NCBI GenBank assembly: GCA_001414345.1
Contig: LLCB01000176.1
Location: forward strand, 1-64,000
Direction: 5' to 3'
DNA from: Hymenoscyphus infarciens
Taxonomy: Eukaryota > Ascomycota > Leotiomycetes > Helotiales > Helotiaceae
DNA length: 64,000 bases
Both the position numbers and the translations under genes were made by a program. Under the pieces are notes generated by a model. The model had not been told where the DNA came from. It did no database searches and saw only the letters and a list, made by a program, of their open reading frames with translations. Shown piece by piece: positions 5,834-47,851 of the stretch. The number at the start of each line of letters is the position of its first letter. The stretch's first letter is position 1.

Positions 5834-8800
5834 TATTCTAAATATACTAAAAAGTTGGATTAATAAATAGTAAATCGTAAATCGATAATCGTAAATCGTA
5901 AAGCTTAAATTAATACGTATATAGCTCTTTAGAGCTAAATCGTAAATCGATAAACGTAGATTTTTTAAGAGCTATTTAGATATAAATCAAAAAGCTTAAA
6001 TTACAAAATTCAAGTATAAGTAAGAGTAGAAAGTAGAAGGTAATATAGTATATATACGTCTATTAAATATATATATATTATAATTACTTAATACTTACTT
6101 TCTATTAATATATACTATCTAGTACTATATTAAATATAAGTATAATATAACTTTAAATCTATTATCTAAAACATTATAAATTATTTAGTTTAAATAATAA
6201 CGTTATATAAGTATCTAATAAATAAGAGAGAAAAAGAGATAATTAAGACTTTTAATACTATAACTATAGCTATAGTTTAACCTAAAAGCAAGAGACGCTA
6301 AGCCTAATTAGGTAATTAGTATATAATTAACAAAGTAGTACTTAAAGTAAAGAGAGTAAAAGAAGAAGTAAAGATAGTAAAAAGTAACTATAAAGTAGTA
6401 ATAAAATTAAAGTATTATAGATAATTCTCCTAGTATCTATATCTAAAGTATCTACTACTATATATACTTACTTCTTATCTCTCTTCTTATTATACTTATT
6501 ATATATAATCCTAACCTTTTTAGTAGTATAAGAGAGTTAATTAGTAAGAGTTATTTAAAAGAGAGTATCTCTACTCTTTCTCTTTAAATTAAAGCTATTT
6601 ATAGAAGTAATCGTAGTAGTAGATATTATTTTACTTACTAGCGTATTTATAAGTATAAGAGAAGTAGATAAGAACGAATTAGAGACTCTCTTATTAAGCT
6701 CTTAATTAAGTTTTAATTACTCTTTCTTATTAATTAATTTAAGCCTATCTTTAGTAATAGTAGTTTAAATATCTATATATAATTAAGTATTAAAATCTCT
6801 TATAATTTACTCGTCTATATCTATCTATTATTATACTATCTTATCTACTCTCTCTAGTATATTTAACTTAGTAGATACTATTAAGCTCTTCTTCTTCTTA
6901 TTCTCTATAAGAGATAATAGTAAGTATAAGTCTAGATTTAATATTTCTTTACTATTAGTATTCTCTCTTATATCTATATCTATATTCTTACTTCTTATAT
7001 TACTATCTCTAGAATTATTATCTCTATTATTCTCCTCTTTTAAATAAGTAGTAATAATTATAAAGTAGTCTTCTAAGTATATAGTAATAATTATAGATAT
7101 CTCTAGAAGATTATCTAATTCTAAATCGTCTACTAATATTATACTTACTCTAGTACTAGTACTATCTCCTAGTAATAGTATAGGCCTAGTATTCTCTTCT
7201 CTATTCTAAGCGTTATCTTTAAGTATAATAAGCTTATTATTAAGTATCTTAATAAGTATTAAGAGTTAAATTAGAATTAATAGCTCTAAGATATTCTATA
7301 AAAGTATAATAGATTATCTCTTTTTAGAAGATTAAGACTTATTATTAATATAGCTATTAAATACTATATATACTTTATAGTACTTTTTATTAATAAGACC
7401 TTTTAGTAAGTTAAAGTATTATATAAGAGCTTATATATTATTTACCTCCTTATAATCTATAGTACTTAATTAATTAGCCTTTCTCTTTCTAATAGTAACG
7501 TTTATAGCTAGAAAGACGTCTTCTATCTTATTAGTAAGAAGTAGTATATTAATAGAATCCTATCTACTAGAAGTAGACATTATATAGTAGATACTCTCTA
7601 AGAGCTTAATAGTAAACCTTTTAGCTTATATATTCTAGAGTACTAATTTAAAGTTAAATAGATCTTTAAAGTTACTAGTAAGTAAGTAAGATATCTAAAA
7701 TAGAAAGTTATTATTAATTTATACTTTAACTATCTTACTACGTTATACTATAGAAGTATATATAATTATAGAGTTACTCTTAGTAGTAGAGAAGTTCTTA
7801 GTACTTATTATATATATATAGATATATAGAGCTACTTAGATATAGAGTTTAATAATAGAGATAGACTTTAGTACTCTATAGATTAGAGAAGAAGAAGCTA
7901 GAGAACTTATACTAATTAGTAGTATATACTAAATTTAAGAGTACTACTTACTTTTAGCCTTTTTCTTATTAGAGATAAATCTCTTCTTATATACTTTTAC
8001 TCTAATTATTTTAGTCTTATTAGAAGTCTTTATAAAGAAGGATTATCTAGCTCTAGCCTTTTTCTCTTAGATAGCTCGCTCTCTAGCTATAGCTAATTTA
8101 TTCTTCTTTTACTTAATAATAAGAGTAAAGTAGTTAGTAGTAGAACGTTTTATAGTAGCCTCTTACTTCCTCTTAGACTTTATAATTAACTGTTATTTCT
8201 TCTCTTAGCTATCGAAGCTTTATATTATAGCTTTTATAGAGTAGTTTTTTACTTTTTATTAATAGTTCTTAATCTTATTATTAAAGAGCCTCTAAGGAAG
8301 CATAGATACGTGATTTTCTAGAGTACTTACTAGGTTTACTAAGAAGTAATAAGAGTATACTTTAAGCTTTAAACTCTTAGAATAAGAAGCCTAGACTTCT
8401 AAGTATTTAAAAGACTAATATTAAAGTATCTTAGTATATTTTTAGTATTATAGAGTAGCAAATATAAGGCTTTTAAAAGTATAAGTAAAAGTAATAGAAT
8501 AAAAGTAGGAAAATTAGAAAACTGTCTTACTTAAACTATATAACCTCTTATACCTTACTTCTTACTTTTAGTACTATTTATAAGGTCTTAATATACTATT
8601 CTAGTTTATATTAAATAATTACTAGTTATATAGTATATTATCTTCTATAAAGGCTAGGACTTTGTTTACTATTCTATAAGTATTTATAAAAGTAGATATA
8701 AGTAAGACTAGATTAAAAGATATTCTAATTCAAGTAACTACTTAAGAGCTAGCTTAGAAACCTCTTCTAAGAACCGAGAAGGTTCTAAAAGTAAGTAATC

Positions 8801-11608
8801 GATACTAAGCCTAATTCGTAAATTATTTACTACTACTAATAAAAGTTAGTAATCTATATACTTAAAATAGCCTAAAAACATAATATTCTAAATTAATTCT
8901 TTTACCTTTTATTTAAGTATAGAATAGTATTATTTATGTTTATAAAGCTAACTAGAACTTAATAGACGTAGAACCTATAATATTACGATTTTTTAAAGAT
9001 TTAAGAGTCTAAGATTACTAACTTTTATTAATAGTAGTAAGTAATTTATAAATTAGACTTAGTACTAATAGTTGTAGTTAGTAGGTTTACTCTACTAAAA
9101 TCCCTCTCTAGATACTTAGAGAATTACATATCTATAACTATATCTATAACCTTATATAAATCACTTCTAATTTTAATTAAAAGTTAATAAACATGTCTAT
9201 TCCTCTCTAGAGTTATATTAAGCCTTTTTTTATACTTAAAATATATGAATTTTAAGCTTAGAGCTCGGCTTATATTTAGTATAGGTTTATTCTTAGTTTA
9301 GTATATCTGTTTACTTATTAATTATAGATAGTAAAAGCAACGCTACTAGCTAACTCTCTATACCTTTTATAGATAGTAATATATACTTCCTTTGTTATAT
9401 TACTCTCTATTAACGTTCTATTTACCTTAGCTAGTAGGTAATTATAATTATAGACTATTATAGAGTCTATAGTTAGTTAGTAGATTATAATATTATAATC
9501 CTAGAGTTACTATTATAGCTAGAGATATATATTAAGTATAAGGTTACTAATAAGAAGAGAGAGGATTAAGGATTTAAGACCTTACTCTTTAAATAGACTT
9601 AAAAGACTATCTTTTAGTAGATAACCTAGGATTAGAATTATTAAAGCCCTCTACTATAACAACGACGTTTAATACTATCTATTAGTAGAAGAGCTCTATA
9701 AAGGAGGAGGCCTAATCCTAAGAATAAATTAGTAGCCTCTAAGGTAGATTAATTAAATATAAATTTATCTACTAATATCTATCTCTAAATCTCCTTCTAA
9801 ATTATCTTTAACTAGTAAGGTATACCTATTAGTTATATACTCTCTTAAATCCTTATCTAATTCTACTAAACTATTATTATCTAACTCTTCTAATTCCTTA
9901 TCTAAGAAGTTACTATTATATAGATAATCTAGTACTACGTTCGTTACTTAATCGCTTCTATCTTCGTTATTAAAGTATATATTAAATTTATCTTAATTAA
10001 CTTCTTTAGCTTTCTTTAATTCTTAAGCTACTTTAAAGTATAACTTCTACTTATATACTCTCTCTAGCTTATCTAAAAAGCCTAATCCTACTAAATTACT
10101 CTCTTAGATATACGCTAATAATTCTACTCTTAAATCTAAGTACGCTATAGTATAAGTTTCCTCTTCTTTAGTATATATTATCTTATTAATTAGTAGCATA
10201 TATCTATATACTAATAATTTTATTTTATACTACTCTAGAGTTATCTAAGGCAAATATATATTAATATCCTAATTCTTATATAATTCCTAAAGCTTAGTAA
10301 GCTTCTTAGTAGACACCTTAATACTATAATCGTCTATTAGATACACTTTACTCCTAGAATAGTAAAAGTTAGTCGATAGTACTCTTAGTACTCTATACTC
10401 TTAATTAGTATTAGTATAAATATAATAGCGATTTTATATATATATAAACGTTTAAAGCTCCTTTTAGATAATTAGAATATATATATATATAATATAGCGA
10501 TTATATTAAAGAGGCTCTTTTTAGAAAAATAACCTCTTTTTATAGATACTCTAGAAGTATATCTTCTACTTATTTAAAGACTCTTTTATAAGCTATTCTT
10601 ACTAAGCCTTAATATATTAGTTAGCTATAGAAGTACTAAACTAATATAGGTCTAAAAATTAGTATAGCTCTCTACTACTTTCTATAGCTTATTATTAATA
10701 AAGTATATAGTAAGCGTCTACTACTATTAGAGATTCCGATTCTTAATCTAATTATATATAATATAGTATCTTTCTAAGGCTACTTATAGTATCGTTATAT
10801 TACTATAGAGTAAATACTACTATATTATTCAAGATATCGTAATAGCTTTAAAAGAGAAATTAAGTATAGGTATTAATACTAGTATATATCTTAATACTAA
10901 TAAACCTTAATTTATAATATCTATTAATACTCTATATAAAATTAGACTCTAGTATAATATATTCACTATAAGTATTCTTAATCTCTTATAACCTATGATT
11001 ATACCTCTTCTTATTAATCTTTAATAGCGCCTTTTAAATCTTATTCTAGCTCTATCTTTTATCTCTATCTCTATTAATACTATAAGTATTAAGATACGTA
11101 TAGAGGAACCTAAGGTCGAAGCTCCTTATAGTACTAAAGTAGCTATATTCGTAGATCTTATACTAAAGAATAGCCTCTAGCTCTTTACGCTCTTCCTATA
11201 TAAGGAACTTTCAACGTCGAAGGCCTATCTTAAATCGTAACCTTTAAAGCCTTTAAAGCTTAATTATAAAGCTCTTATAATTTAACATATATACTATACT
11301 TAAATTAGACAATCCTATATCTTTAAAGAGATATACTACTCGTATATATAAGGTAGAAGTAGTTTTACTTTTTTTATACTAGCGAAGGTTCTACCTTATA
11401 TTAATTTAGAGCTTAAAAGTAGTATTAGAGATATTAATATTATACTTACTTTTAAGAATATCGTATATCTCTTAAGTAAGAACTTCCTTTTAATATAACT
11501 CCTCTATAAATACTCTATATAGCTCTAAATCGATAAACTAACGTAGTATATTTAGGCTTCTATTATACGCTTAAAATCGCTCTTTTTACACTTTCTACTA
11601 TATAGAGT

Positions 11609-11957
11609 CGCTACTAGAGCTTATCCTCTTCCTTCTCCTATCGTCGTTAATATTCGAATTCAAGAAAGAAGAGAGAGTATATATAGTAGTAGGATAATAC
11701 TTTTAAAGAAAGGAATAATATAGAGTAGTATTTAAAGGAAGAAGCAACTAATTCAATTTATCTTAAGAGGTTCTACTACTAAGAATATTACACTTTAATA
11801 GATATCTAAAGCTACTACTAGAGCTTATTCTCTTCTTTCTTCTATTGTTATTAGTACTCGAATTTAAGAGAGGAGAGAGAGTATATATAGTAGTAGAATA
11901 ACACTTTTAAAGGAAGGAATAATAGAGAGTAGTATATAGTATTTAAAAGAAGAAGTA
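11609..11957. repeat. Imperfect direct duplication, about 140 bp per copy
   Basis: 11609-11745 and 11814-11957 share the order CTACTAGAGCTTAT, TCTTC-rich stretch, TTCGAAT/CTCGAAT, GAGAGAGTATATATAGTAGTAG, AGGAATAATA and a final GAAGAAG. The copies differ mainly by transitions. The function is unknown, and the duplication lies inside the family B element. Confidence 0.6.
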
Positions 11958-12427
11958 ATATAAGAAGGTTAGTATATAGAGTAAGTACACTTTTTAGCTT
12001 ATAAAATAAATAGCGCTAACTCTAATTAAGAAATTAGTATATAATTAAGAAAAGTAGCTAAAAGTGCTTAAATAATCTTAAAGTAAGATTATTTAAGCTT
12101 TTAAAGTAAGCTAATTACTTCGATATTAAGTAATCTAGAGTAATTAGTTTAAAAAAGGCCTAGTTTTAAGATATAATTTAAGAACTTATTATAGTAATAA
12201 AAGTCGATTTATATAGTCTTTTTATATTATATATATATATCTTTTACTCTAATATGTTTTAATTTAATATTTAATACCTTTTATAATTATTTATTAATTA
12301 TATAACTTTTATAATTTATAATTTACGATTTACGATTTAGCCTCTAAAAAATCTACGTTTATTAATTTATAATTTATAATTTGCGATTTAGCTTTAAAGA
12401 GCTATATACTTAGAAATCTAAGCTTTA

Positions 12428-12497
12428 TGATTTACGATTTACGATTTACGATTTACGATTTACGATTTACGATTTACGATTTACGATTTGCGATTTA
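12428..12497. repeat. TTTACGA heptamer array
   Basis: About nine head-to-tail copies of the 7-bp unit TTTACGA, the last ones varying to TTTGCGA. It sits just inside the right end of the family B element. Shorter runs of the same unit (as TCGTAAA) occur near 5868-5905, 14395-14420 and 56275-56300, always just inside a transposon tip. The array is subterminal, so it may be a transposase-binding repeat. Confidence 0.85.
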
Positions 12498-12547
12498 GTC
12501 GTCGTTTCCGACTTTTAGTATATACGAGACGTCTTATATATACGAGA

Positions 12548-14458
12548 CGCTCTACTTTTACTATAAGTAAACTCTTAATCTCTAAGAGTTAAAATTTTTT
12601 TACTTAGTTATAGTAGCGTTTCTAGTTAAAGAACTAGTAATTAGAGTTTATAGACCTTAATTTAGTTTAAATAAGCGTGTTCTAGTATTCTATATATACT
12701 ATATCTTCTACGCTTTCTAATATTAGTACTAGATTATTTTTAAGCTTTTAAAGTAGATCTTAGAAAGCGAATTTCCTAGTATATCTAAGTAAGAATTAAG
12801 CTTTTAAGAATATACACTTGTTTATAATACTCTTTATCTAGAAGCTAACTTTATAAATCTTATCTTATATAGTATAAAGCTTATTAATTTTAAAAGTATA
12901 TCTTTTAATATTAATTCTAAAGTCCTCTTTAATATTATTAACTATTACTAGAAGTAGTTATTCTAGTTAATCTTTTCTTATATATTAAGCTACTAAGAGT
13001 ATATCTTAGGCTTTATTTACTATAACTTAGGCTTTTTTAAGTCTTATATTCTTATTAAGTATCGCTTATTTAATTATAGAATAAGGTCTTTTAAGCTTAT
13101 TAGCGTTCTTAGTATTAAGGCTATTTAGATTAAAGTATTCTTAGACTCTTTCTTAATAGATAATATAAAAGAAGTAGTTATATTATATAAGCTATAAGTT
13201 TTAGTTAGTAAGAAGGACTTTTTTAGTTAAGAGTAAGCTTACTATTATAAAAGTAGTACTTTTAAGAAGAAAATAAGAATAGATAAAAAGAAGATAAAGC
13301 TAATATAACTAGCGTAGTAGAAGTAGTATTCTATCTACTAACTAAGCTTATAACTATAGCAATTATAAAAGCTATATTAAGAGTATAGAATAAGTAAAGT
13401 AAAGTTAAAGTAGATGCTTAATTCTCTAGAACTATAGAGAAGAGTATAAGACTTTAAATACTATACTTCTTACTTAAAAAGTAGAGATTATTAGATAATT
13501 CTTTATCTAATCTATCTTTGTCTTATAATAGTAAGTTTCTAGAATAAAAAGATAAAATAATTCTTAAAATACTCTCTTTTCTTAAAAAAAAAAAAGGGAT
13601 TTTTAAAACATTTTTTAAAACATTTTTTAAATTTTTTTTTTTTCTTTCTTCCTACTACTCTTAGGAGATTATAAATAGACAGACTATATACTAGCTATAC
13701 TAAGACTTTTATAAAAAAATATACTCAGACTTTTATAAAAAATATACTAAGACTTTTATAAAAATAAAAAATAAAAGATAAAAAATAGATGTAAAAGTGT
13801 TTTCTTTTTCTTTTATAAAGTTTATAGAGGTAGAGCGTAATCGTAAATTATAAATTACAAAGTTAAGCTAAAGTAGAACTTAATAATTATACTTGCTACT
13901 TCTTAGTCTCTCTCTCTTACTACTCTTTTCTTCTTTAATATATTATATAAAGATAAAAGTATAGAAGAGAGAGAGAGAGGGAGAGAGGGAGAGAGAGAGA
14001 GAGAGAGAGAGTAAGCAAACATTTTAGTAGAAAGTTTTTCCTAGCATAGGTAAGAGGAGTTTAGCAAAAGTAGTAAATAATCCTCTCTCTTTCTTTTTCT
14101 CTCTCCCTCTCTCTCTCTCTCTCTTATTTATCTAGAAACAATAGAAAGAATACAATATAATAATAAGAAGACGATAGTAAGGGGGCAATAGTAAGAGAGT
14201 AATATCCCTACTATATACTATATACTATATACGTAATATATGTTTTATTTTCCCTCTCTATTCTCTAATTAGCTAGTTACTATATATAGTTAAGACTATC
14301 TAACCTAAAGATAGAGAGGAGGAAGGAGAGAGACGGAATTTATATTACAAATTAGAAATTATTCTCTTTTATACTTATAGAAAGTAACGATTTACAATTT
14401 GCGATTTCCTATTTACGATTTAGTTAATCCGACTTTTTAGTGTATTCAGGATGCCGTA
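12548..14458. mobile_element. Right end of a TIR transposon (family A), RIP-degraded
   Basis: The right tip reads, inward from 14458, TACGGCATCCTGAATACAC then AAAAAGTCGGATTAACTAAATCG. The identical tip occurs at 56228 in the other direction. 12548-12900 matches 63690-64000 and 13340-13530 matches 56840-57000, both in direct orientation. The left part of the element is either beyond position 1 or was cut off where family B ends. No protein was recognised. Confidence 0.55.
13895..14458 (+). repeat. Left arm of a 0.56-kb inverted repeat (partner at 56228-56823)
   Basis: Reading inward from 14458, the arm carries the tip, ACTTTCTATAAGTATAAAAGAG, two CT/GA microsatellites (about 14095-14130 and 13965-14010) and TAAGAGAGAGAGACTAAGAAG. 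The same blocks occur in the same order from 56228 to 56823. This is the long terminal inverted repeat of family A. The two arms face away from the gene-bearing 41.8 kb between them. Confidence 0.75.
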
Positions 14459-15100
14459 AGAGGAGAAGAGGAGGAGATATAAACCTCTTCTTTTACTCTT
14501 CTTTTCCTCTTCTTATTAAATAGTATATTATATGTTATTATTAATTCAAAGAGAAGAGAGTAGCTAAAACGACGCGTAAAAAGAGACTATCTAAAAAGAC
14601 GCGTATAAAGAGAGAAAGTAAAAAGCTCGGATTATGAAAAGAGAAGGCAAATTTAAGCTTAACTCGCAACTCACTATAACATAGAATACGAAACTGTGAC
14701 GAAAAAGGAACTTTAGAGAACCAAAAACAAGAAAGACAGATTAAACCATAATTTCATATTTCCTTCATTTCTCTTTTCATTCCATTCTTTCTTTATACAT
14801 TACTCCCACCCGGGACATCTCGCTCCTCCATTTTATCTACTTCTCTCCATCTCTCCCTCTCTCCATCTGACTTACACAAACTACTCTCAGAAAAAGCAGA
14901 AGAAAAAAGGATTCGCTATCTCCCAAACGCCCTCGGAATCTCGCGACAAGGTACGCGCGCGAAAAATAAGAAAAACGGTCTAGTCCCATCCACTCACTAC
15001 TTCCACCTCACCACGACCGTCGTCATAGCCTCTGCCACCAGCCACCATTCAACCACACCACACACCACACACCACACACACTATAGACACCCTCACCCAT
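14459..15100. other. Transition from RIP block to gene island; erdS 3' flank
   Basis: AT-rich until about 14640, then normal composition with CA and TG restored. A CACACCA-type repeat lies at 15045-15085 just past the erdS stop. No gene is visible. Confidence 0.6.
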
Positions 15101-18100
15101 CTACTCCTCCTCCAAGAACCCCATAATCGCTCTAATACCACCCGCACCCAGTCCCCCCCTCGGATAACAAACATAAACAGGCTCCTCCCAACACCCCATC
15201 TTGGCGCGAAACTCGGACTTGTTAGTCAACTTGAATTGTTTATTGATAGCCTCATACGCCTTCCTCAACGCCTTGACCTTGTGTTTACCCAGGTTCCTAC
15301 CGCCCTCAAGTGTATTACTCGCCCCGGTTCCAAAAGTTACTTGTCTAGTATCTGGTTCCGCAGCGGAGAGAGATTTAAACGAAAAGAGGATGAGGGACTC
15401 GATTGTGCCCGAAGGAGCGTGGGGGAATTCGAGGGAGAATTTAACTTGGTAGCCGTTCTTGGGGCTCAGTTGATGCAGGACAACGAGGGCGAGAACCTCA
15501 TCTTTTGAGCCGGTTGCGTAGTAGTACCTACGATGTTCTTGGTCGATCCATGGTCTAATCTGGGTAAGGTGGATTTGTGTTCCTTTACGTCCAGATTGCC
15601 AGGCTGCGATCCCAGCGTCGATTTTAGCCTTCACATCTTCGGGAACGGGTTGCGCGAATGGAAGCTCAACATTCTTGACCCCCTCTTTCTCAGCATGTCG
15701 TACCTTCCTCGCAAGATCAGCGTCTTTAAGCGCAGGATTATCTTTAGGATTCGCTCGTTCCTCGGCCGTACATGCCAAAGTTCGCCAGAGGAATTTCTCG
15801 CCCACGTATTCTTCTACTTCCTTACCCGCGATCATCCAAAGGGGTTTGAGTTCTTTGTATTCGGCGTGGTGTTTGTGTTCCTTGTTGTCCTTGAGGAATT
15901 GTAGGTATGCGGAGATGACTTGGGGATATTGAGATTTGGCGCAAAGAGGGTCACCAACTGCGATGGCGTAGCCGTTATGTACGATGTAGCCCTGTGCTGC
16001 GCCGGTGGAGGGATGACGATAGACGTGGTAACGTTGATCGAGCCACGATGTATTTCCTGCATCCCCGTAGTTGGCGATGAGTTTTTCGAGGGGTTGGAGG
16101 TGTGATGTGCCATCGAGGTTGTTGGAGGAGATGATGGGCGTGTCGATGTCTTCTCTCTCCCAGGGTGGGTTGGTGGTACTTGCTTCTTCGTGCCTCAGTG
16201 CAAGGACTGGTGGTTTTGCAGGGAGGGATTTTGGATCTCGAGGGAAGAGGGAGGCGAGACGGATGTTTCCGAGGTTGAGGAAGAGGTAGGTTAATCTTTC
16301 GAGACCAATACCGCAGCCTGCGTGTGGTGGCGCTCCCCAGCGGAACCCTTCGAGGTATTCGATCATGGAGTCTGGTTTGATGCCTTGTTTCTTGATTTTC
16401 GTTTCGAGGAATTTGGCATCGTGGATACGTTGCCCGCCACTCAGAATCTCTTGTCCTCTCATGAAGATATCGAACGAGTTTGTGAATCGGTCATCTTCTG
16501 GATCGGGCATCGTATAGAACGGTCGAGCTGAAGCAGGGAATTTGTCAAGAATGTAGTAATCAGTCTTGTACTTTTCCTTGACCAAAGCACCTAACCGAAT
16601 CTCCGCTCTGGTCGCAAGATCCTCTGTGACTGAAGGTGGATTGCCATCATCATCAACCCATCCATCGTCAATCAACATCTGAACACCATCCTTGAAGGCA
16701 ATTCTTGGAGTAACCTCGAGCCACTGTACCTTCTCGTGAGGATAAAAGTGTGAGATGAGCTCAATCTCATTCTCATATCGATCGTAGATTCCTTGCCACA
16801 AATTCTTAAACATTCCATCAATAATATCCAATGCCTCGTGATAATGCTCCTCCAAGGCCATTTCAAGATCCAGCCCGGTATACTCGGTCAAATGACGAGG
16901 GGTATTACTATCTTCGGCTCGGAAAACTGGACCAATCTCGTAAACTCTCTCGAAATCAGCTGCTATACACATCTGCTTTGCCAATTGAGGGGATTGTGCG
17001 AGGAAAGCTGGGCGACCGAAATAATTCAATTCGAAGACGGTCGCTCCCGACTCGGTAGCACCACCTTGCAATTTGGGTGTGTGAATCTCGATAAAGCCCT
17101 TGGTATCAAGGTACGAACGGAAGAGATTGCATATGCCAGATTGAATACGGAATATAGATTGCGCAGGACCAGTTCTGAGATCCACGATTCGGTTGTTGAG
17201 TCGTACTCGTTGGGGGAGGGATCGATTTTGTCGGAAGACGTCCATGCTTGCTATTTTTTGTTAGCTCTGTAAGTCCACGGCATCAAGAAAATACTTACTT
17301 CGACTGTTGAGTTTGTCCGCCAATCTATCAATCGAACTCCTGGATACATCCTGAGATTTCCTACCAAGATCCGTGGACCTCCGACTTGGAGGAGTGGTAT
17401 TCTTGCTGGTGGGATCTTGAGAATCATCTTCCTCGTCATCATCCGCATCCTCCTTGTCTCGGTTTATATTTTCGGCATCGTAGACAGTAAATGGGACATT
17501 CTCTGTCAGATCCCCTACTTTGTGTATCTCCAGCACATCCAATTCCCAATCGTGAATTGTCGCGTTCTTGACTCGCTTCTGGGATTTACGGACCCTGGCA
17601 TGGCAGACGACGATGGTTTCGCTGGGGTAACGTTCTATACTTCGAACCATGTAGTCGGAAATCCCCTCGGGGTTGTATTCTCCTTCTGGGAGGGGGTGTT
17701 AGTTTATGCTGTATATGATATGGTTGGAGAGAAAAAAAGCTAGAAAAATGCATACCCGTGATTTCCTCCAAGGGCTGGAAACTTTGTAGTACACCTTGAA
17801 TTGTAACCGTCTGCTGTCGAAATACGATGAATACCAATTTGGCACTCATTCGGCGCAGGGTATGTATGCGGGCTCGAAACGAAACAACTCGCCCATCTGC
17901 TTCTATAACATTGTCAGATTGAGTGAGTACAAACGGGGTAGCACCAGGGCACATACTCTCGAAATCCAAGTCCTTGAACAAAACGCGCGTCTCGTGGTTC
18001 CATCTCTTGCTCATATTCATACTGTATGGTCGGTAGAGTTTCGTGAGTGCAGGAGGTCCCGTCGCCAGAAATTTCTCATCCTCGATTTTTGCCAACGATT

Positions 18101-18383
18101 GCCGCTTCTTGTTTTCTGCTTTCGATTTCAACTTGTCGAGACTCTTTCGCTGTCTCTCTGCCAAAATAATTTCGGAACTCTGGCGTTTTTGGTTCGAATC
18201 TAGGGAGACGCCCCGATTTCCATTGGCGACTCCATTCGCATTTCCGTTTGCAGTGCCATTATTACCATTGAGAGAGACCGGGGTCGAGGTACCACTATTT
18301 GTTTTGTTGGGGACAGAATCGGTGGAAGGGTTGGAACTCCCGAGAGCCTTAATCTTCCGCAAGTTCTTCTTGATGAACGACAT
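15101..18383 (-). CDS. erdS: ErdS: aspartyl-tRNA synthetase fused to DUF2156 aminoacyl-tRNA transferase (ergosteryl-aspartate synthase)
   Basis: The model has four exons on the minus strand: 18383-17957, 17902-17756, 17685-17299 and 17250-15101. It gives 1036 aa. Introns are 54, 70 and 48 nt with donors GTATGT, GTATGC and GTAAGT, and all joins keep frame. Residues 1-130 are polar and Lys-rich. The anticodon-binding OB fold follows (about 143-260). An acidic, Ser-rich insert (about 262-320) precedes the class II catalytic core (about 330-660). The core shows the Asp-pocket residues QSPQLAKQM, motif 2 FRAEDSNTPRHLTE near 430, and motif 3 GIGLERLTYL near 635. From about 690 to the end is a DUF2156/GNAT-like domain (GYIVHNGYAIAVGDPLC near 742-757). 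This architecture is that of fungal ErdS, which forms Asp-tRNA and transfers Asp to the ergosterol 3-beta-OH. ATG 18383 is the first in-frame ATG, with A at -3. It is divergent from the hydrolase at 20897. The family call is strong; activity is inferred. Confidence 0.93.
17903..17956 (-). other. Predicted 54-nt intron in erdS that keeps the frame open if retained
   Basis: Donor GTATGT, acceptor TTATAG, length divisible by three and no stop inside. Removal joins residues FES to KADGRVVSF in the OB fold. Retention would add 18 residues there. The ideal donor and typical length favour splicing. Confidence 0.65.
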
Positions 18384-20896
18384 GTTGGAATTTTGTCGAT
18401 TGCTGGATGTGAAGGTGAGAAGGTCGCGTTGGGCCCCAGGGCTGATATAAATGGGTTGGCGCGGGCAGAATGCAACTGGCTGAATAATGCGGGTAGGGTA
18501 GCACCTGCAAGCAACCGTGGAGCTGTTGAGGAGCTGACGGCGAATCAATAGTGCTGGAAGGCGGGGGATGACTGGCTCGCGATCTTTTTTAACTTTGAAT
18601 TTGATTATGATATCGCGCGGAAGCTTCGGAATGTGTGATTCACACCTGATCCTGATTCTGATTTACTTGAAGGCGAAAATCACGCAGGCGATAGTCAGAA
18701 CCGCGAAGTGCAGAGTCGCGATTGGTAAGAGAGTGAGGTGTTGGAAGAGTGAGGAAGACGGAGAGAAGGGCAGGAAGGGAGAGAAGAGGTAGGTAGGTAG
18801 CAAAGGGGAGGGGGAAGGAGGGAAGGAGGGAAGGAGGCTGATGGGGGGAAATGACGGGAGAAGGGAGTGAGGACAAACGGTACTGGTACAGCAGCTACAA
18901 GTATGTACTGGTACTGTACTCACTTTCACTCCCTTTCGTCACAGCCATTGAATGTACTGTAACTCTGAATCAGGGAGGTTTAGAAGAGGATGGAAGGGTC
19001 CAGCCAGCCCGATATTATTTCCTATTATTTTCTTTCCACCTGCAGCCTCTGCCTTGCCAGTGAGTCGCACGGCACGGCATTGGGTGGCCGGCAGTGGAGA
19101 CGAATGACATCAGGGACCCACCCAGCACGCACGCAATTGGAAGTGGAATAGTGGAACATGCAAAAGCGAAAAGAAGCTCATGGGAAAAGCTTGTCCATCA
19201 GCCATAATCCCACCAGCCAGCGGAGCCGCCACTTCTCTGGCTATGCAAATTCGAACATTTCTCAAGGTTCGTGTATACGGAACTGTACCTAGACCTTGGT
19301 GAAATCCTGGCTTGTCCAACACGGTTGCTGTGCGAGAATCAAGTAACGTCATACCGACACCGAACAACGAGGGTCTCGATGCTACCTTACTACCTTACTA
19401 CCTTACCTAGGGAAGAAGAACCCGGAGCTTCCCTCCGTCCCAGCCCGCCAAGTTTTCCATCGTGGGGCGAGTCAGCCGCCAGATCCGGCGTTTATTTGTG
19501 TTTAACTTTCAGCAGCAAGCAAGTTTGGGCGAGTACAGTCATGAGAAATATCTCAACACCTGCATCATTTCAGTTTGGAAATATCTCATGACCTGATTAG
19601 TGATTACGTCGTAATGGAGTATTATATTCCGCTCAATTCGCCGTCTCTTCGTCGGGTCTCAGTTCATCCTCGGGTCTCAGTTCAGTTGCTCTCCTTTTTC
19701 TGATGAAACGGCACTGCAGTTGCTGCGTTTGGTACGCCAAAGACTGTAGGGAAATCTGATGTTCTTGGATATGTATCGTTTTGAGGAAAATTAAGATCCA
19801 ACTCTATAAGATGGCGGCTAGCAACCAAAGCGAAGAAGATGCCATGACGGGTGATTTCAACTCGGAAAGTCAACAATTTCACAGAGATCAAACTGCAAAG
19901 TCATTATGGGCTTCTTCAAATATACCAACGACAGAATCTCTAGATGCACGTCAGTCTTGAGCTATGCTGTTCCTGTCACAGAAAGCGATTGTTGGTGCAG
20001 TATATCCTTACGAAAACCCAATTGAGAAACCAAGACCAAAACGTGCGATGTATGAAGAGGCGAGAGCCAATGGAATAGATAACTTATGTTGGTACATAGG
20101 ACAATGTTGTCAAGACAGGTCAATTAGACTGTCGAATAAAGTTATTCAAGGGATTCGCACATGTTGGCACATGGCAACATATATTGGAAGATAGTATCAC
20201 ATGTTCTAGGCACTTGCCTCTTCGTAACTGTGATTGCATGCGAAGATTCTTTCGTGGTGTTTGGTGCTATTTTCTTCCGCCAGTTTTTCCGAATGATGGA
20301 ACAACTTTCACCCGTCTTGAAGCCTCGGATTCTAGGCATTAATGACGTACCTAGCCTTCAACCCCTTCACGCCTCAACACTCACAACGCTTTATTTTTGC
20401 TACCGATCAACCGACTCAACTGGCACATGGAGTATCCTGACCTCTAATAATATCGGGTTTCGAGAAGCATTCATGGAAGATTTCTGATGTCCCAATCATC
20501 AACAGTATCATTCCGAAACTCTGTGATTGGACCAGCTGCAAATGGATTACTGAGCGGCTGAGCCACGCAAACCACGAGTCAAAAGGCAACGGAAAAGGTA
20601 ACCACCTACTAACTAGAACCGCGATTGTAACCACTTGGCCAGCCATTGATAGTATACGAACTGGGGCCTCCTCATACCTTGATCCTATCTATCTCCTGCT
20701 TCCCAACCTAATCCCACCACAAACAGGCCACACTCCACTTGCCAGGAATCCCAGGGTTCGGCATCGCACCCCACCAATATCACAACCCCGAACTACGAGT
20801 AGATTTTTACAACCACCTCCCTCCCAATCCATTCCACCTCTCTTCTATCCTCTAAACACTCTTTATTTGTCGAATATTTCCAAAATCCATACACAC
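18384..20896. promoter_or_regulatory. Shared 2.5-kb region between divergent erdS and the candidate erdH
   Basis: Normal composition and no convincing gene. Contents, from left to right: an ATG-less frame in phase with erdS up to about 18598; a G-rich tract with GGAAGGAGG-type repeats (18790-18850); GTACTGGTAC palindromic units (18880-18920); TACTACCT repeats (19380-19410); an 11-nt direct repeat GAAATATCTCA (near 19548 and 19580); and a repeated CGGGTCTCAGTTCA (19650-19685). Short open frames at 19964-20487 look spurious. Promoters for both genes must lie here, but no specific binding site is assigned. Confidence 0.6.
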
Positions 20897-22318
20897 ATGA
20901 GCATTGACTCTGTTCGCTGGACCCCCATGGTGAAGGCCGTAATATGGAGGGCCTTGATGGCCATTGGCATGAAGTTCCACCACTTCGCCGACCCCAAACC
21001 TCCCAGACCTCATTTCAAGATCGTCATCCCCTCGAGATTATCAGATAAAGGTGGCACATTCACGCTGGTTTTCTACGTCCCGGAATCATACTTCGAAGCG
21101 CCCGAGGGTCATCGATATCCAGTGGTGGTCAACTTCCACGGTGGGGGGTTCACACTGGGCACAGGAACAGATGATGCAAGATGGGCGGCAACGGTGACAG
21201 GTATAGTGGAAGCCGTTCTCGTTTCCGTCGAATACAGGCTGGCACCAGAATACCCGTTCAGCGTGGGCGTGGAGGATGGGACGGATGCGGTGATATATTT
21301 GGCATCCCATGCGGAAGAGCTACAACTCGATCCGCATCGAATGGCATTATCGGGCTTCTCTGCAGGAGGGAATTTCGCATTTACAGTTCCCCTGATGCTC
21401 CACGATTTACAAAACGAGGCGGGAAGACGATATCTGGCGGAAGCCAACGTGAGCAAAAAACAGAAGCAAAAGTCATCAGACACATTATCACCACCCAACG
21501 GCGTGGGATCATCGTCCTCGGCCGCCTCCTCCACGCTTTCCCTCCCTCGATCAAATCCAGTAGCCGGCCAATCCTTCGGCTCTGTCTACAAACTCACAGA
21601 CCTTGAACCAACCGCTCTAGAAATCGAACAATCGGTTCCAGATCTCACTATTCGCGCCATAGTCTCCTTCTACCCACCCACCGATTTTCGCCAAAACCGT
21701 GAAGAGAAACGAGCCACGAACCCACATCCGGAAAAGAATCTTCCCCCAATGCTCACCAAACTCTTTGATGAATCGTACATGCACCCACCGGAATCTATTG
21801 ATCTCACCGACCCATACCTTTCGCCAGCAGCTGCTTCGGATGCTGTCTTGAAAGCCGCATACCCTCAGGATATTGTGTTGTATACTTGTGAATACGACAT
21901 GTTGAATGCAGAGGGTGTAGCTTTTGGGGAACGGCTGTCGGGTCCAGAAGTAGGAAAGACGGTACATGGCGGCCTAGTAAAAGCAGTCGTCCACGCATTC
22001 GATAAGAAACCGAATCCCCTCAAATTCCCCGCTTCCGCAGATAAATGTTATTCCGAAGCCTGTTCGGAGTTAAAGAGAGTCTTTGGTGGCAGAACGAATC
22101 TACAAGATAGGAGACAATTGGACGAGGCAAAGACTGTTGAGAGATTCGAGGATGGGGATGTACATGATGGGACTGCTAAAGCGGAGGGTTTGGTTGGGGG
22201 AATGAGAATTGTGAATGATGACCAAAGATTAAATGAGGTAGAGAGTGGTTCTGGGGCGTCGAGTTCTAGAAGGGGAAGTGATCAGAAAGGGCCGGGGCCT
22301 GATCATTTACATTATTAG
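20897..22318 (+). CDS. HSL-family alpha/beta hydrolase, candidate ErdH (ergosteryl-aspartate hydrolase)
   Basis: An uninterrupted 473-aa frame starting at ATG 20897, in a CA-rich context with A at -3. It is an alpha/beta-hydrolase fold-3 (hormone-sensitive-lipase-like) enzyme. Visible landmarks are the oxyanion box HGGG at 81-84, the nucleophile elbow GFSAGG with Ser155, acid Asp334 in CEYD, and His366 in VVHAF. RLAPEYPF at 114-121 is a family hallmark. Residues 187-228 form a Lys/Ser-rich low-complexity insert, and the last 70 residues are an acidic, Ser/Gly-rich tail. There is no signal peptide; residues 11-25 are mildly hydrophobic and could touch a membrane. Fungal ErdH, which removes Asp from ergosteryl-aspartate, is a hydrolase of this broad type. 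The head-to-head position with erdS makes that role likely, but sequence alone cannot exclude another ester substrate. No symbol is given because orthology is untested. Confidence 0.8.
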   Translation: MSIDSVRWTPMVKAVIWRALMAIGMKFHHFADPKPPRPHFKIVIPSRLSDKGGTFTLVFYVPESYFEAPEGHRYPVVVNFHGGGFTLGTGTDDARWAATVTGIVEAVLVSVEYRLAPEYPFSVGVEDGTDAVIYLASHAEELQLDPHRMALSGFSAGGNFAFTVPLMLHDLQNEAGRRYLAEANVSKKQKQKSSDTLSPPNGVGSSSSAASSTLSLPRSNPVAGQSFGSVYKLTDLEPTALEIEQSVPDLTIRAIVSFYPPTDFRQNREEKRATNPHPEKNLPPMLTKLFDESYMHPPESIDLTDPYLSPAAASDAVLKAAYPQDIVLYTCEYDMLNAEGVAFGERLSGPEVGKTVHGGLVKAVVHAFDKKPNPLKFPASADKCYSEACSELKRVFGGRTNLQDRRQLDEAKTVERFEDGDVHDGTAKAEGLVGGMRIVNDDQRLNEVESGSGASSSRRGSDQKGPGPDHLHY

Positions 22319-22799
22319 AGGAGTTGGATATTTGGATGTCGAATGAATAGATGACTTTTATGTATTTTATGGTGTATTTTCTATGCTTTGTGTATTCGGA
22401 CTTGGGAATTGCTCGTGTCAATGTGCTATTGGAACGATGGCAATATATATCCGTACTAGATAAGCGAGGATATTCCCACTCGTCGACCGATATATCGCGA
22501 TACCTTGAATATCGCATCGATGCTACTAGCCTTGAACGTGTTTTAGTAGCTCGTTTATTAGACTACTAGTACGATGAAATAGTCTATAAACTTAGATAAC
22601 TTATCTATAAAACAGCGACACTATAATTCTAAAAAGTATATATACTAATATAATATTTTATACTAACCTTTATATTATTTTAAGTTATCTCAAAATTAAC
22701 CTTTTAGGCTAATATCACTCTTATGTATATAACTTCTAGATATCTAATCGATATATATAGATATATCAATTGAATTATTTATTAGATTAGATAACTATA
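22319..22799. other. Downstream flank of the hydrolase passing into an AT-rich RIP block
   Basis: Normal composition to about 22550, then AT-rich with CA and TG lost. No gene is seen. Confidence 0.6.
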
Positions 22800-22804
22800 G
22801 ATAG

Positions 22805-22974
22805 TATTAGTATAACTTATAGTTATAAAAGTAATATAAAAAGAGTTATATATTCGTTCGTATATACTAAGTAAAGCTAGCTACGATGTCTACTTAAGTA
22901 GTTCTTAAGTAAGAAGTATATATACTTACGTATACTAATCTAAATCGCTATTTACTCTTAAATATATACTAATA
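22805..22974. repeat. LTR, left copy of the 22805-30825 element
   Basis: 170 bp. It pairs with 30656-30825 base for base apart from transitions, and is preceded by target duplication GATAG. Confidence 0.9.
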
Positions 22975-23258
22975 CTAGTACTTCTTTAAAATAATAGAAG
23001 TTAGTATCTTAAAAATTATTAAAAATCTCTTATCTAGTCTAACTAATCATAGCCTTCTATTCACTTCCCTCGACTAATAAGAAGGTCTTATTTTATAGCT
23101 ATATTATCTTATATTCTACTCTAACCTAGATCGAAGTATATACACTTTTATACTAGTAGTCCTTCGCTAGAATCGTTCTATCGCCGATTATGCTTTAGAC
23201 GTTCGACGGGAATATCGAAGTCGTTATTACTATTGTCGCTTAAATTAAGAATAGTATA

Positions 23259-26200
23259 ATGATTTATATCTTAAATATCCCTTGATTAATAAATAATACC
23301 TAGAATACCTCTTGTTTTTATATCTCTTATTTTTAGAGAGTAAAACTATTAAAATAGAGGTATTCTAGTTAGTAAAGATATTTTCCTTATTTATTATTTT
23401 CTCTATACTAATATACTAAAAATTTAATAAATATAGTAAATTAACCTACTACTATACTATCTATCTACTTCTTAATATATAAACTTTTATAAGTACTCTC
23501 TAGTAGTATAATACTCTAATTCTTATACTTTTACTTATCTCTTAAATCGACGGCTTTTTAGCTCTTCTAAGTACTTAGATTAATCTTAATTCTAATTCCT
23601 TCTTATATAGTAGGATTAATTCTTAGCTTAGTACTATCTATACTAATTTCGCTCTAAACGTCTATATTCTCCTACTTTTACTTCTACTTCTACTTCTGCT
23701 TCTGCTTCTACTTCTACTCTACTACCTTTACTCTATATAATTAATCTAATATTAATAGCGTAAGACGATGTCTATTAATATCTACTATATACTCTTAATC
23801 TATATAGTAATAATACTTATCGATTATACTTTAACTATTACCTAATTATTACTTTTTCTTCTTATCTTAAGTACTTAAAACTTTAGAATATACTCTTAGC
23901 TTAATAAATCGCTTATTAATTCCTCTTCTACTAGTAATATTATATTAATATTATATACTCTTTATAGCTTACTTAGTTTTGCTATTATTACTTATACTTA
24001 TAATTAAGAGTTTGTTAAGCTTAAATAGCTTCTCTAATAGTAGCTTAGATAATAGGAAAAAGTTCTCTAAGCTATTAGAAAAGCTATTAAATTCCTCTTT
24101 ATATTCCTCTCTACTATCTCTATCTCTATTCTTATCTTTATTTTTAAGAGATTCTAAAACTTGGTTTTAATAATAGAAGGTAATTTGTACTTTATTAGTA
24201 GTAGTAAGATTGAATTAGTAAAGAGGATTATTATTAATATCTTTAAGAAAGACTTCTTAGTTTTTAAACTTATTATTACTTAATTAGTTACTATCTTCTC
24301 TAAAAACTACCTCTTTTACCTTTTATATACGCTTATAAGCTAATAGTATACCTGTATATGTTCTTGAATTATAGCTAACTTCTTAGTAATTATAATACTT
24401 ATAATTTAATAGTTAATACTTTTAAAGAATATATGTCTTTTTTAGTTATTCTATATAGCGCTTAATTAGTAGTAGTAAAATACTAAGAGTAGAACGAAGC
24501 TTATTAATTATAAGGAAAAGCTTAAAAGTAGAATAGTATATTATATAATAATTTAAGAGTAAATAGCTATAGTAGAAGAATTATATAACGTTAATAGTAA
24601 GATATTAGTAATAGGTAATTACGTATAAGTAAGGTGATTAATAATCCTAGAAAGAGAGGTATAAGTAAGTATACTCTTTAAGGTTAACTTAGTAATAATG
24701 TTTTTTAAAAGTATTAACTTAGTAGACGTCTCTACTAATAAGAATAACTTTATACTTTTTAGTATACTCTAGCCTTTTAAGATAGAGCTTTTATAGCTTA
24801 TTTTAGACCTTAGTATTATTAAATTTAGTAGGCGAATTATAATATAAATAAAACTTCTTTATTACTTAATCCTATATACTATTAAGTAGTTATATTAGTA
24901 GACGATTCTAAATCTCGCTTTATACTAAGTTAATACTCTTAATAATATTTAATATATTATAGCTATATTATAAAAGTCTCTTAATAGAGATAACCTTATA
25001 TATAGAATAAATATCGATTAGAATAGTAGCGATGTATTTAGAGAGAGTTTTATTACTATACTTCTTCTTAAACTTTACTATTTATAATAGAGTTTCCTAG
25101 TAAGTATCTCTATCTTTTATATAGTAAAGTCTCTATTAAAGTTATCTTAATTTCTTATTATAGTAAAAGGCGATATTATTTATAATATACTAATAATATA
25201 TAAGAGTATAAGCTTTTAGAAAGGCTATTAGAAGTTACTTTTATAGGCTCTTTTAGTAGTTATTAATTAGTATCTATTTATTACTATCCTTATATATTAC
25301 TTAAAGAGTTTAAAAGGTATATACTATATTTATAAAATACTACTTCTACGACTTCTCGTCCTCTTTTAGTAATAACGTCTAGTAAATTAGTAATATCTTA
25401 TTATTAGTATTAATTATAATAGTAATTACTAGTACTATCTTAAACTTTAATTAAGTATATATAGTATTAACTCTAGTAAAGTAGTAGATATATTTAGTAG
25501 TATTATAAAGAGGTTCTAGAGTAATAAATACGCTCTTAAATTCTATAGTTTCCTAGTTAATTTAAAGACGTATATAGTAAGTAGGATCTAAATCTTAGAG
25601 CGCCTTTATATAATTTAGTATAAGTATAAATAAATTCTTTTCCTTCTTAAGACTCTTCTTATATTGTTTTTAGATAGTATAATATACTTAATAATTTAGT
25701 ATAGTATTACCTTAGCTAAGTAACTTCTTATTATTTACTAAATTCTTTATTTTAAGATTAGGATCTTAATTAATAGATTTAGTATAGGTATTAAGAATAT
25801 ATTATATACTATTCTTACTATAGTAATTAAGATATATATTAGTTAGATAAGAGTAAGAGGTATATACTTAAAAGATTATATACTAAGTCTTCTTAGAAAG
25901 GATAATATATAGATAGAATTCATATATCTCTTTTATCTTATACTTAAGAATAAACTAACCTTTATCTAACTTTATAATCTTATAAGATTCGTCTTAATTA
26001 ATTAGATAAACAATTATAGCCTCTTTTACCTCTTTAAAAGTAGGCTACTTTTAACTAATTTATATAATATTCTTTAAAGTATTAGTATCTACTAGTATAG
26101 AATCATCTATTAATTTATTTATAATAGCTTTATCTTATTATTCTTATTAATTAAGCTCTTTTAATATTATATAATAAGGCTTTATACACTACTTATACTC

Positions 26201-26482
26201 TATCTTATTCTTATACTTAAAGGCTAGTATATTAGTAGTAGTAGTAATAGTAGAAGAAGATAGAGAGAGAATAGATTTTAGTACTTAAATATTATAAGGT
26301 ATCCTAGTATATAGTTTTAATTTACTTAAAAACAGATATAGATATATAGTAAAAGTAGTAAATATTTACTAACTAGAATACCTCTATTTTAATAGTTTTA
26401 CTCTCTAAAAATAAGAGATATAAAAACAAGAGGTATTCTAGGTATTATTTATTAATTAAGGGATATTTAAGGTATAAATCAT
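23259..26482. mobile_element. TIR element with about 118-bp inverted repeats and probable TA target duplication
   Basis: Left TIR 23259-23376 starts ATGATTTATATCTTAAATATC. The reverse complement of 26365-26482 starts ATGATTTATACCTTAAATATC and stays alignable for about 118 bp with only a few transitions. TA flanks both sides (23257-23258 and 26483-26484), which fits Tc1/mariner-type insertion. The 3.0-kb interior is RIP-degraded. One minus-strand frame around 25900-26200 looks formerly coding but was not identified. The element is nested in the LTR element 22805-30825. Confidence 0.75.
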
Positions 26483-26988
26483 TATTTAGAGAGTAAAATA
26501 GATAATTACCGTTTAAGAATAAAGGTTTCGACATCTTTAAGAGTAATAAAAGTGTCTAACTCTTAGAACAATACTTCGAAGTTGCTTAGAAGCTCTAGAA
26601 GCGCGTCTGATAGTAGTTCTAGGATATCGGCATTCTAACGAATCCGAAGTCGATATTAGAGAGAGAGTGAATAACGAAGTCGATATCGAGAGAGAGTCTA
26701 TTATTTAATATCTTACCTACTCTACTCTACTTCTTACCTACTCTATTGCTTAAAAGTTCTCTCTTTTTTATAAGATTATAGTATTAGATTATTTATTAGA
26801 TTATTCGATAGTACTATCCTAGAAATTCCTCTATCTACTAGTGCTATTCTAAAAGTTTAAGAAGTTTTAATAAAGTATAGCTTTATAACTATAGGTTGAA
26901 ACTTTATAGAACTACCTAGTAGTAATATAATATAGAGTTTAAGCAGTATATAATAGACTAAGGTTAGTAGAACTATCGAAGTTATTAC

Positions 26989-27299
26989 TATAATAGCACG
27001 AAATATATACTACTATAAAAGAGGTATATAGGAGTGCGTTTAGCAGAATAATATACGTAGATACTAGGCTCTAATATAGAAGAAAAGGAAAAACTATCTC
27101 TCTTCTACTCTAGAAGTAGGCTACTATATATAAGAGGTTTAGACTAAAAGGTCTAAAACCAACTAACGTTATACGTTAGCTAATATAAAAGCTTAAACTT
27201 ATATAACCTTCTTAAAATAGATAATATAAGATAATAACTACTAAAACCCTATATATAGTAGGTACTTCTAGCTATCTAGGATAATAGTATACTATTATA
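26989..27299. repeat. LTR, left copy of the 26989-29825 element
   Basis: 311 bp, preceded by ATTAC. Confidence 0.9.
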
Positions 27300-29514
27300 T
27301 CTCTCTCTCTTAAAAAAGACTTATCTTAAGTCTTTTATCTCTTATTATTTAAAGTTAAATTAAAGTAGTATAAGTATTATAATATTTATTATATTTTATT
27401 ATTTTTATTATAAGTAAGAAGTTAAGATATTAGTACTAAATTATATTTATTAATACTTATAAAGAGACTTTATTTTTAATTCTTTAATATTAAAAGTAAG
27501 TATTTATATTAGCTAAAAGAGTATAGTTTAATCTATTTAGTAGGTTAGAGAAAGTTTAAAGTTTAAAGTAAAAGTTTAAAGTAGAGATAGAAGTAAATTT
27601 AGAATTAAGTTAAAAGTAAATATTAAGAAGTAATATTATAAATAATAGTAATATCTTAGCTAAGAGTTTATTTTAAGAGTATACTAATTTATATTTAATT
27701 TAAAGAATTTAAAAAAAGAGTATAAGTTTAAAAAAAGTTTAGAATAGTTAAAAGCGAATTTAGAGTAGAGTTAGAGGTTATTTAGTTAAGAGGTAGTAAT
27801 AACTTAGTTAAGAGCTTACTTTAAGAATATACTAATTTATATTTAATTTAAAGAATAAAAAAAGTAAAAAAGGACTTCTAGTCTAGCTAGAAGTAAAAGA
27901 AAGTAAGACTTTTATTAAAGTTAGTAGAGTTTTAGCTAGTTAAAAGAGTTTATTACTAAAGTTATTAGAGTTTTATTATTTAAAGTTTAAGATAATAAAA
28001 GAAGTAGTTTTAGCTAGTTAAAGATAAAGTTATTATTAAATATTAAAAATACTATTTAAAGTTTAAAATAATAAAAAAAGAAATATAGTTTTAAGTATAA
28101 TAGTATCTAAGTTTAAATATAGATATATAGTTATATAACTATATTACTTAGGCTTATAAGCTACCTTATTCCTTTTAGTAATTTAAGTTTAAATTAGAGT
28201 ATTTAAAGACTTAATTATTATCTTTTAATTTTAAAGAAGAGTTATTATTAGATCATAAGGAGTTTAGAGCTAAACTAAATAAGAATAGAGAGGTATTTTA
28301 AATTAAAGTACTTTAGTTTTACTCTTTATTTATAGCTAAAAGATTATTTACTATTTTAGTAAAGTTATAATTCTAGTATCTCTTAAAAGTAGTAGATAGG
28401 TTTTAAAGCTAAGATAAAATCTTATTTTATATATAAAAGGACCTTTCTAATTCTAGTATCTTCTAAGTATAGCTATACTTAAAAAGTAACCTTTTAAAAT
28501 TAGTAAAAGTTTCTTTAGTATATTCTTCTTCTAATTCTACTTCTATCTCTTTTATAACCTTTATACTAGTAGCTAGAACTTAGTTTATAACTATAGTCTT
28601 TTAAATATTTATTAGTAGAGGTATTTTTAAAGGAAAAGTTTAGAGTTAGATAATATTTAGTTAAGATTAATAGTAATAACTTAGCTAAGAGCTTACTTCT
28701 AAGTTTTATCTTAATAGAAAGTATATTTTAACTAATTTATATTTAATTTAAGAGTTAGGAAGTAGTAGAAAGGTATTAGAAGTAGTAGTATCTCTTAAAT
28801 AAAAGAGGTCTAAATTAAAGCTTTTAAAAGTAAAGAAGGGTTTAAATAAAGATTAGATTAGTAAGAGTTTAAAAGTAGGATTTAGTTATTAACTTTAAAG
28901 TTTACTTATAATTTTATTCTCTATCTTTTAACTAACTAATTATTTTATCTTTTATATTTATACTATTATCTTATTTATATATTATCTATATTTAAAAAGT
29001 CTTTTTAAAGAGCTAAGCTTTTATTATTTTAGTATATAGTTATAAATTAAAGAAGGTTTAGAGAGTTATTTTTTAAAAAGAGAAGTAGTTTTAGAAGGTT
29101 ATTTAACACTTTATAGTAGAACTAGGTTTAATATTTTAAAGATATTAGTAAGAGAGAGAGAGGTAAGAGTAGATTTAAAAGCCTTTATAATAACTTTTAG
29201 TAATAGTTAACTTATTTACTAAACCTATATATAATAGTTCTCATATAAAGAGAGTTATTAGAAGCCTTTAAAGTACTTAGTATATTCCTACTTCTTTAAC
29301 GTATAAAACACGCTTTTTACTAGCTATTTAAAACTAATATTAAACTCTAATATTACTAGCTATCTAGGTAGTCTTTAATTATCTAGTTATTTAAGAATAT
29401 TATTATCTTAGTCTAAATCTAGGCTAAGTTATATTTAAAATAAAAGAAGCGACGATAAGCTTAAAAGAGATATTATAAATACTATTACTAGTAAAGTAGA
29501 GTTTTTCCTTTTTA

Positions 29515-29825
29515 TATAATAGTACGAAATATATACTACTATAAAAGAGGTATATAAGAGTATATTTAGTAGAATAATATATATAGATACTAGGCTCTAA
29601 TATAGAAGAAAAGGAAAAACTATCCCTTTTCTACTCTAGGAGTAAGCTGCTATATATAAGAGGTTTAGACTAAAAGGTCTGAAACCGACTAACGTTATAC
29701 GTCGGCTAATATAAAAGCCTGAACCTACGTAACCTTCTTAAAATAGATAATATAAGATAATAACTACTGAAACTCTATATATAACAGGTACTCCTAGCTA
29801 TTTAGAATAACGGTATACTGTTATA
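29515..29825. repeat. LTR, right copy of the 26989-29825 element
   Basis: 311 bp, followed by ATTAC. It contains the CTGAAACC/CCGACTAACG bases that are mutated in the left copy. Confidence 0.9.
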
Positions 29826-30655
29826 ATTACTAGTAATATCTAAGAAGACTAGATGTTATTATTAGAGTTGTTATTACTATTACCTTTATTATCTTTTAGT
29901 AGATTCTTCTATATGTTTATAATAGGATCTAAAGACTTTAGTACTAGCTTCTTCTAATACTATAGCTTTTAATTCTTCGTCCGACTACTTAGTTTAGTTA
30001 ACCTTAGTAGCGGTACTATATAATACTTAAGATATATTTTTTCTATCTATCTTAACCTATACTCCTCTAGTATAAAGTATCTGTTATAACTTAGTAGTAG
30101 TAGATTAGTAAACTTCAGCGAAGTTATCTTAGTTCTATCTCTTAAAGTCTACTTAAAACTCGTTCTAAAGAAGGAGGTCTTTATTCTCTTCTTTAGTATA
30201 CTTCTCCTCTTATTCAGTAGTATACTACGTCTCCTCTATTAGTATATTCACTATATTATAATATATATTATTATTCGAAGTAGTAGATATTAATATAAAT
30301 TGTCTTAGAGAGAGGTAGGAGATTAGAAGTAGTAATTAGCGCTTTCTATCTTAAGAAGCGTTTATAGTTTATTAAATCGAAAGTATTAGTATTAACGATT
30401 TTATATATAGTAGGCGTTTAAGAGGTTACTTAGAACAGTTGTAATATTCTTAGCTTTTAGTAGTAGTAATAGTAATCGGCGCTTCTTGTCTTAAGAAGCG
30501 TTTATAGTATATTATCGAAGTTATTAAATAGTTGAAGGAACTACGATCTAAGAAGAGGAGTCTACTAGTAATATCGAGTTTACTTTTATATAAGTATATC
30601 TATAGTAGAAATATACGAAGTAACTAAGTATCTAATCTATACGTCTACTAATTAG

Positions 30656-40270: not shown

Positions 40271-40272
40271 TA

Positions 40273-40514: not shown

Positions 40515-40516
40515 TA

Positions 40517-41044: not shown

Positions 41045-41049
41045 TAAAG

Positions 41050-41239
41050 TGTTAGTGTAACTAGGTTATAAATAGGGTCTTCCTATCCCTCTTTGAGAGA
41101 TTAAAAGGTAACGTAAAAAGTGGTTATTCATTTATACGTGTCTATCTATAAGTATAAAGGTCTGAGTATAAATAGGCCTTATTCCACTATCTAATTAGGT
41201 AACTGGAACCGACATATTTACTCTATAATTGTCTTAATA
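41050..41239 (-). repeat. Copia LTR, 3' copy
   Basis: 190 bp. Matches 47657-47846 apart from transitions, and is preceded by TAAAG. Confidence 0.9.
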
Positions 41240-47846: not shown

Positions 47847-47851
47847 TAAAG

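Follow-up and report, generated by a model that had tools for sequence, protein, structure and literature searches.

A head-to-head gene pair in the first 64,000 nucleotides of contig LLCB01000176.1 of Hymenoscyphus infarciens (here C86, positions 1–64000; hereafter the window) probably encodes the enzymes for the two halves of the fungal ergosteryl-aspartate (Erg-Asp) cycle. The minus-strand gene, which runs from 18383 to 15101, almost certainly specifies an ErdS-type enzyme, as judged from its sequence: a fusion of an aspartyl-tRNA synthetase (AspRS) with a DUF2156 aminoacyl transferase domain. The divergent plus-strand gene (20897–22318) encodes a hydrolase of the hormone-sensitive lipase (HSL) type, our candidate for ErdH. 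In the 2020 work of Yakobov et al., ErdH was reportedly the Erg-Asp hydrolase. Both genes were found at the coordinates and on the strands given by the initial annotation of the window. Chance would not explain two long, strongly conserved genes at this place.

These assignments suggest a cycle of sterol modification. The AspRS part of ErdS would charge tRNA-Asp with aspartate, and the DUF2156 part would transfer the aspartyl group of Asp-tRNA to the ergosterol 3beta-OH. The plus-strand serine esterase would most likely cleave the aspartyl ester again. We infer that Erg-Asp is the substrate of both enzymes and that the hydrolase acts as its eraser. The N-terminal helix of the hydrolase may contact the membrane, and both genes may be co-regulated from the region that separates them.

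The erdS gene and its product

The spliced model of erdS consists of three exons that together encode 1054 amino acids with no internal stop. Exon 1 (17756–18383 on the minus strand, like all features of this gene) begins with the ATG at 18383 and encodes an N-terminal extension and the start of the OB (anticodon-binding) region; exon 2 (17299–17685) supplies the remainder of that region and an acidic linker; and exon 3 (15101–17250) contains the AspRS core, the DUF2156 domain, and the stop codon. The two introns (17686–17755 and 17251–17298) have GT-AG borders. The initial annotation described a complete class II AspRS fused to DUF2156. The fusion itself is borne out, but the 714-amino-acid open reading frame (ORF) at 15101–17245 represents the third exon alone, so that the synthetase becomes complete only when exons 1 and 2 are added.

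The class II AspRS catalytic core spans residues 353–677 of the 1054 (16235–17209; PF00152, tRNA-synt_2, E 3.4e-75), and residues 744–1007 (15245–16036) form the aminoacyl transferase domain (PF09924, LPG_synthase_C, previously known as DUF2156; E 1e-7, with 31.8 bits where the cut-off is 27.5). The residues that we take to form the class II motifs are unchanged in 33 of 33 aligned sequences, and the DUF2156 part is strongly conserved in the same set. Residues 162–289, which comprise the OB region, and 347–1052 align with PDB 9w9e at 52 and 943 bits, and the fusion aligns across both enzyme domains with chains 9w9e, 9w9f, and 9w9g. On the basis of this alignment, the three structures look like ErdS. 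Their molecule name is plain aspartate--tRNA ligase, and their chains run through the DUF2156 domain; none of the three was among the rows listed by our fold search. That search used a predicted model of the 714-amino-acid exon 3 product with a mean predicted local distance difference test score (pLDDT) of 71.9, a predicted template modeling score (pTM) of 0.52, and residues 52–133 under 50. The AspRS part was weakly modeled and we therefore used only the DUF2156 part, whose predicted fold matches the MprF, L-PGS, and A-PGS domains at 12–17% identity.

Among the best 120 matches to the fusion, most are themselves AspRS-DUF2156 fusions, from Leotiomycetes and lichens. The closest comes from Hymenoscyphus albidus (84%), and P0175 bears the name ergosteryl-3beta-O-L-aspartate synthase. 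Available passages of one report describe ErdS as an AspRS plus DUF2156 that catalyzes sterol aspartylation and cite the pathway as known since 2020 (PMC9437257). In the window fusion, too, a single chain runs in the same order from an OB region through a class II AspRS core to DUF2156. No difference is decisive, although its N-terminal extension and acidic linker are longer than those of the solved chains. The erdS gene of A. fumigatus appears in a portion of another report as AFUA_1G02570 (PMC11619415).

Comparison with other DUF2156 enzymes sets the fusion apart. ErgS, the ergosterol-3beta-O-glycine synthase (AFUB_085360), is also a sterol-modifying DUF2156-type aminoacyl-tRNA transferase; an excerpt of its description states that it receives Gly-tRNA from an independent synthetase (PMC10449517). 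In contrast, DUF2156 in the window is fused to AspRS. A second DUF2156 was found in the 65.6-Mb genome assembly (742 contigs) neither by profile nor when the window domain itself served as query (E up to 10), in searches that score only first-look candidates and could miss a divergent copy. Since no DUF2156 besides that of erdS turned up, this genome may lack an ergosteryl-glycine synthase of the ErgS type. Unlike MprF, L-PGS, A-PGS, and the bacterial LysX fusion, the window enzyme is without a membrane-flippase part and contains AspRS instead of lysyl-tRNA synthetase.

The linked hydrolase

The plus-strand gene is intronless, begins with the ATG at 20897, and encodes 473 amino acids with an Abhydrolase_3 domain (E 1.2e-36). 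Its catalytic triad consists of Ser155, the nucleophile within a GFSAGG motif (codon 21359–21361), Asp334 (21896–21898), and His366 (21992–21994). The three residues lie where the initial annotation of an HSL-type enzyme had placed them and are unchanged in 44 of 44 aligned sequences that include representatives of the paralogues; common to these paralogues, the triad is not specific to ErdH. The predicted model (mean pLDDT 79.4) has an N-terminal helix (residues 3–28), a confident alpha/beta core, and two low-confidence segments, an insert (residues 184–232) and a tail (residues 411–473). The insert (21446–21592) is predicted to be disordered, with pLDDT under 50, and is unaligned in the rows shown for the paralogue clade. 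In the 50 rows shown, the nearest solved folds are HSL-kind esterases and lipases (TMt 0.72–0.84, 16–23% identity). The closest relatives among the best 120 matches are a Hymenoscyphus fraxineus protein (82%) and one further sequence at 91%; for the hydrolase and the fusion alike, the top matches belong to Helotiales.

Linkage of the two genes in related fungi

We compared, by size and source, the contigs that carry the best 120 hydrolase matches with those that carry the best 120 fusion matches. Contig sizes coincided in 22 cases, one of which (P0034/P0178) was dropped because the sources differ. Thus, 21 of the 120 hydrolase matches lie on a contig equal in size and in source or species to that of a fusion match, 11 of them in named species. 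Fourteen of these shared contigs are at most 102 kb in length (four are under 15 kb) and one is 0.95 Mb; the remaining six exceed 1 Mb and therefore say little about the distance between the genes. Consecutive gene numbers for the pair occur in two species, Chlorociboria (B7494_g7854/g7855) and Erysiphe pulchra (EPUL_001765/001766). Synteny across relatives was a check proposed by the initial annotation; linkage of the pair recurs within Helotiales and favors the window gene as ErdH.

The hydrolase as ErdH candidate

The strongest alternative accepts the fusion as ErdS but holds that the true ErdH is an unlinked paralogue of the C213, C87, or C88 type and that the linked hydrolase cleaves another ester, such as another acyl or aminoacyl sterol. 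We regard this alternative as unlikely, although a number of observations weigh in its favor and against the window gene. At least three hydrolase paralogues reside elsewhere in the genome, on contigs C213 (L009/L010), C87 (L011/L014), and C88 (L013). The C213 paralogue is an intact-looking single ORF, and some of the C87 and C88 matches carry in-frame stops that reflect introns or decay; with the window gene, the family has at least four members in this genome. The name putative ergosteryl-3beta-O-L-aspartate hydrolase is attached to 10 of the 120 best-matching C213 relatives and to four of the best 120 window-type matches (P0006, P0008, P0037, and P0094). P0303, the sole sequence to bear the name without "putative", is a C213 relative that falls outside the window clade in our tree. 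Queried against the genome, Penicillium P0275 finds its best match in C213, at 250 bits, and hits the window gene in two pieces of 129 and 87 bits; the best single piece for P0322, from Auriculariales, is again C213 (228 bits versus 181 and 124) despite its position within the window clade. In addition, linkage in relatives consists of shared contigs and gene numbers, the head-to-head orientation being known from the window alone.

We did not accept the database names as proof of ErdH identity. By these names, the ErdH family of Abhydrolase_3 serine hydrolases includes window-type members, but the same name also spans a second clade, and names carried by both clades cannot decide between them. 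The tree, which was midpoint-rooted and built from 238 of 242 sequences after removal of those under 270 amino acids, groups the window gene with its 120 matches at a support of 0.72; P0322 and P0355 join this clade with a support of 1.0. A clade of 114 members (support 1.0) takes in C213, P0303, and the Penicillium sequences. The kinship of P0303 is not clear-cut, since it matches C213 in one piece with 235 bits and the window gene in two pieces with 159 and 108 bits; it also matches C87 and C88 at up to 52–54% identity over shorter pieces.

Contig sharing provides the main argument against an unlinked ErdH. Repeated sharing with ErdS is confined to the window type: when the list for the C213 paralogue (119 of 120 entered) was compared with the fusion list, a single coincidence appeared, from different sources, and none was kept. 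The contrast of 21/120 with 0/119 rests on a loose control, a further point against our assignment, because the species of the paralogue list mostly differ from those of the fusion list. Between the hydrolase and paralogue lists there were three coincidences: a size of 3244 (both jgi), possibly by chance; 13140, for which the sources differ; and 5336071, a 5.3-Mb contig of Coleophoma cylindrospora in both lists. We conclude that the window hydrolase is likely ErdH and is the best candidate for it in the genome, an assignment that rests on its family and location and not on direct orthology. The ErdH call of the initial annotation is therefore plausible and is backed by the recurrent linkage to erdS, but it is tempered by at least three paralogues of the same family and by the name that C213 relatives share.

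Alternative functions of the two proteins

In a second alternative, the fusion serves mainly as another aspartyl-tRNA synthetase for translation and its neighbor is an unrelated housekeeping esterase. Many relatives, like the PDB entries, are named merely aspartate--tRNA ligase, and exon 3 exceeds the cut-off of the NCBIfam model for aspartate--tRNA(Asn) ligase (TIGR00458). However, another AspRS match is present on contig C125, with 47% identity over exon 3 residues 14–341 and two in-frame stops (introns or decay); the same search returned six further matches that are weaker or the window's own. The conservation of the DUF2156 part and its predicted resemblance to known aminoacyl-tRNA transferases also argue against this alternative, as does the sterol aspartylation by ErdS described in the accessible text of PMC9437257, and we consider it very improbable. 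The ErdS call is upheld by the order of domains, the PDB alignment through both of them, the DUF2156 fold, the status of this DUF2156 as the only one found, and the AspRS match elsewhere.

Say1 is an alpha/beta hydrolase that acts on a sterol ester. A Say1-type steryl acetyl hydrolase is hardly a credible identity for the linked enzyme. Both are alpha/beta hydrolases and would have sterol esters as substrates, but the PF10340 domain of Say1 is unmatched in the window protein at E up to 1, and the three PF10340 matches of the genome are on other contigs (C336, C348, and C425). ErdH may originally have been identified by way of its genomic neighbors or have been linked to DUF2424.

Genomic surroundings of the gene pair

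The two start codons are separated by an intergenic region of 2513 bp (18384–20896), a possible divergent control region. Only two ORFs of at least 90 amino acids (106 and 108 amino acids) lie within it without overlapping either gene. There was no Rfam match at the gathering score within 14000–23000, and no tRNA gene was found within the 64-kb window. The pair occupies an island, roughly 7 to 8 kb long, with a guanine-cytosine (GC) content of 0.48–0.51. The flanking DNA has a GC content of about 0.23, TpA/ApT of 1.65–1.68, and (CpA+TpG)/(ApC+GpT) of 0.11–0.12, ratios that we take to be marks of repeat-induced point mutation (RIP). Both genes are without such marks (TpA/ApT 0.50–0.60).

Similar AT-rich blocks recur along the window (1–14200, 22400–30500, 40000–48900, and 57000–64000; GC 0.21–0.24, TpA/ApT 1.54–1.71), and these RIP-like blocks set apart three GC-balanced gene islands. 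Two islands contain ferric reductase-like ORFs, and a Ctr copper transporter adjoins one of them (32602–33993 on the plus strand, 51300–51791 on the minus strand, and 53561–54682 on the plus strand); this combination hints at metal uptake genes. Other ORFs resemble a class I methyltransferase (38014–38784, minus strand) and a glutathione S-transferase (49947–50777, plus strand).

Discussion

The initial annotation proposed a physically linked system that writes and erases a sterol modification. The idea that this link is new loses weight, given that the same pairing turns up again in Helotiales and that the pathway has been cited as known since 2020. The gene pair looks like an ordinary member of an already published pathway, knowledge of which is itself unchanged by this locus. 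Our literature search found no description of ErdH or of the erdS/erdH gene order, and we make no claim that either is unpublished.

It is tempting to speculate that the hydrolase linked to erdS belongs to a dedicated eraser subfamily, separate from the characterised ErdH and marked by the long disordered insert and tail. We consider this idea doubtful. If true, it would mean that a dedicated eraser has stayed next to erdS throughout Leotiomycetes, the two sharing a single divergent control region. The dedicated eraser and the unlinked ErdH-like paralogues would then represent several enzymes, with different targets, that strip amino acids from sterols. The linkage singles out the best candidate among the several ErdH-like paralogues of these fungi, and its recurrence offers independent genomic support for a paired cycle in which Erg-Asp would be made and removed.

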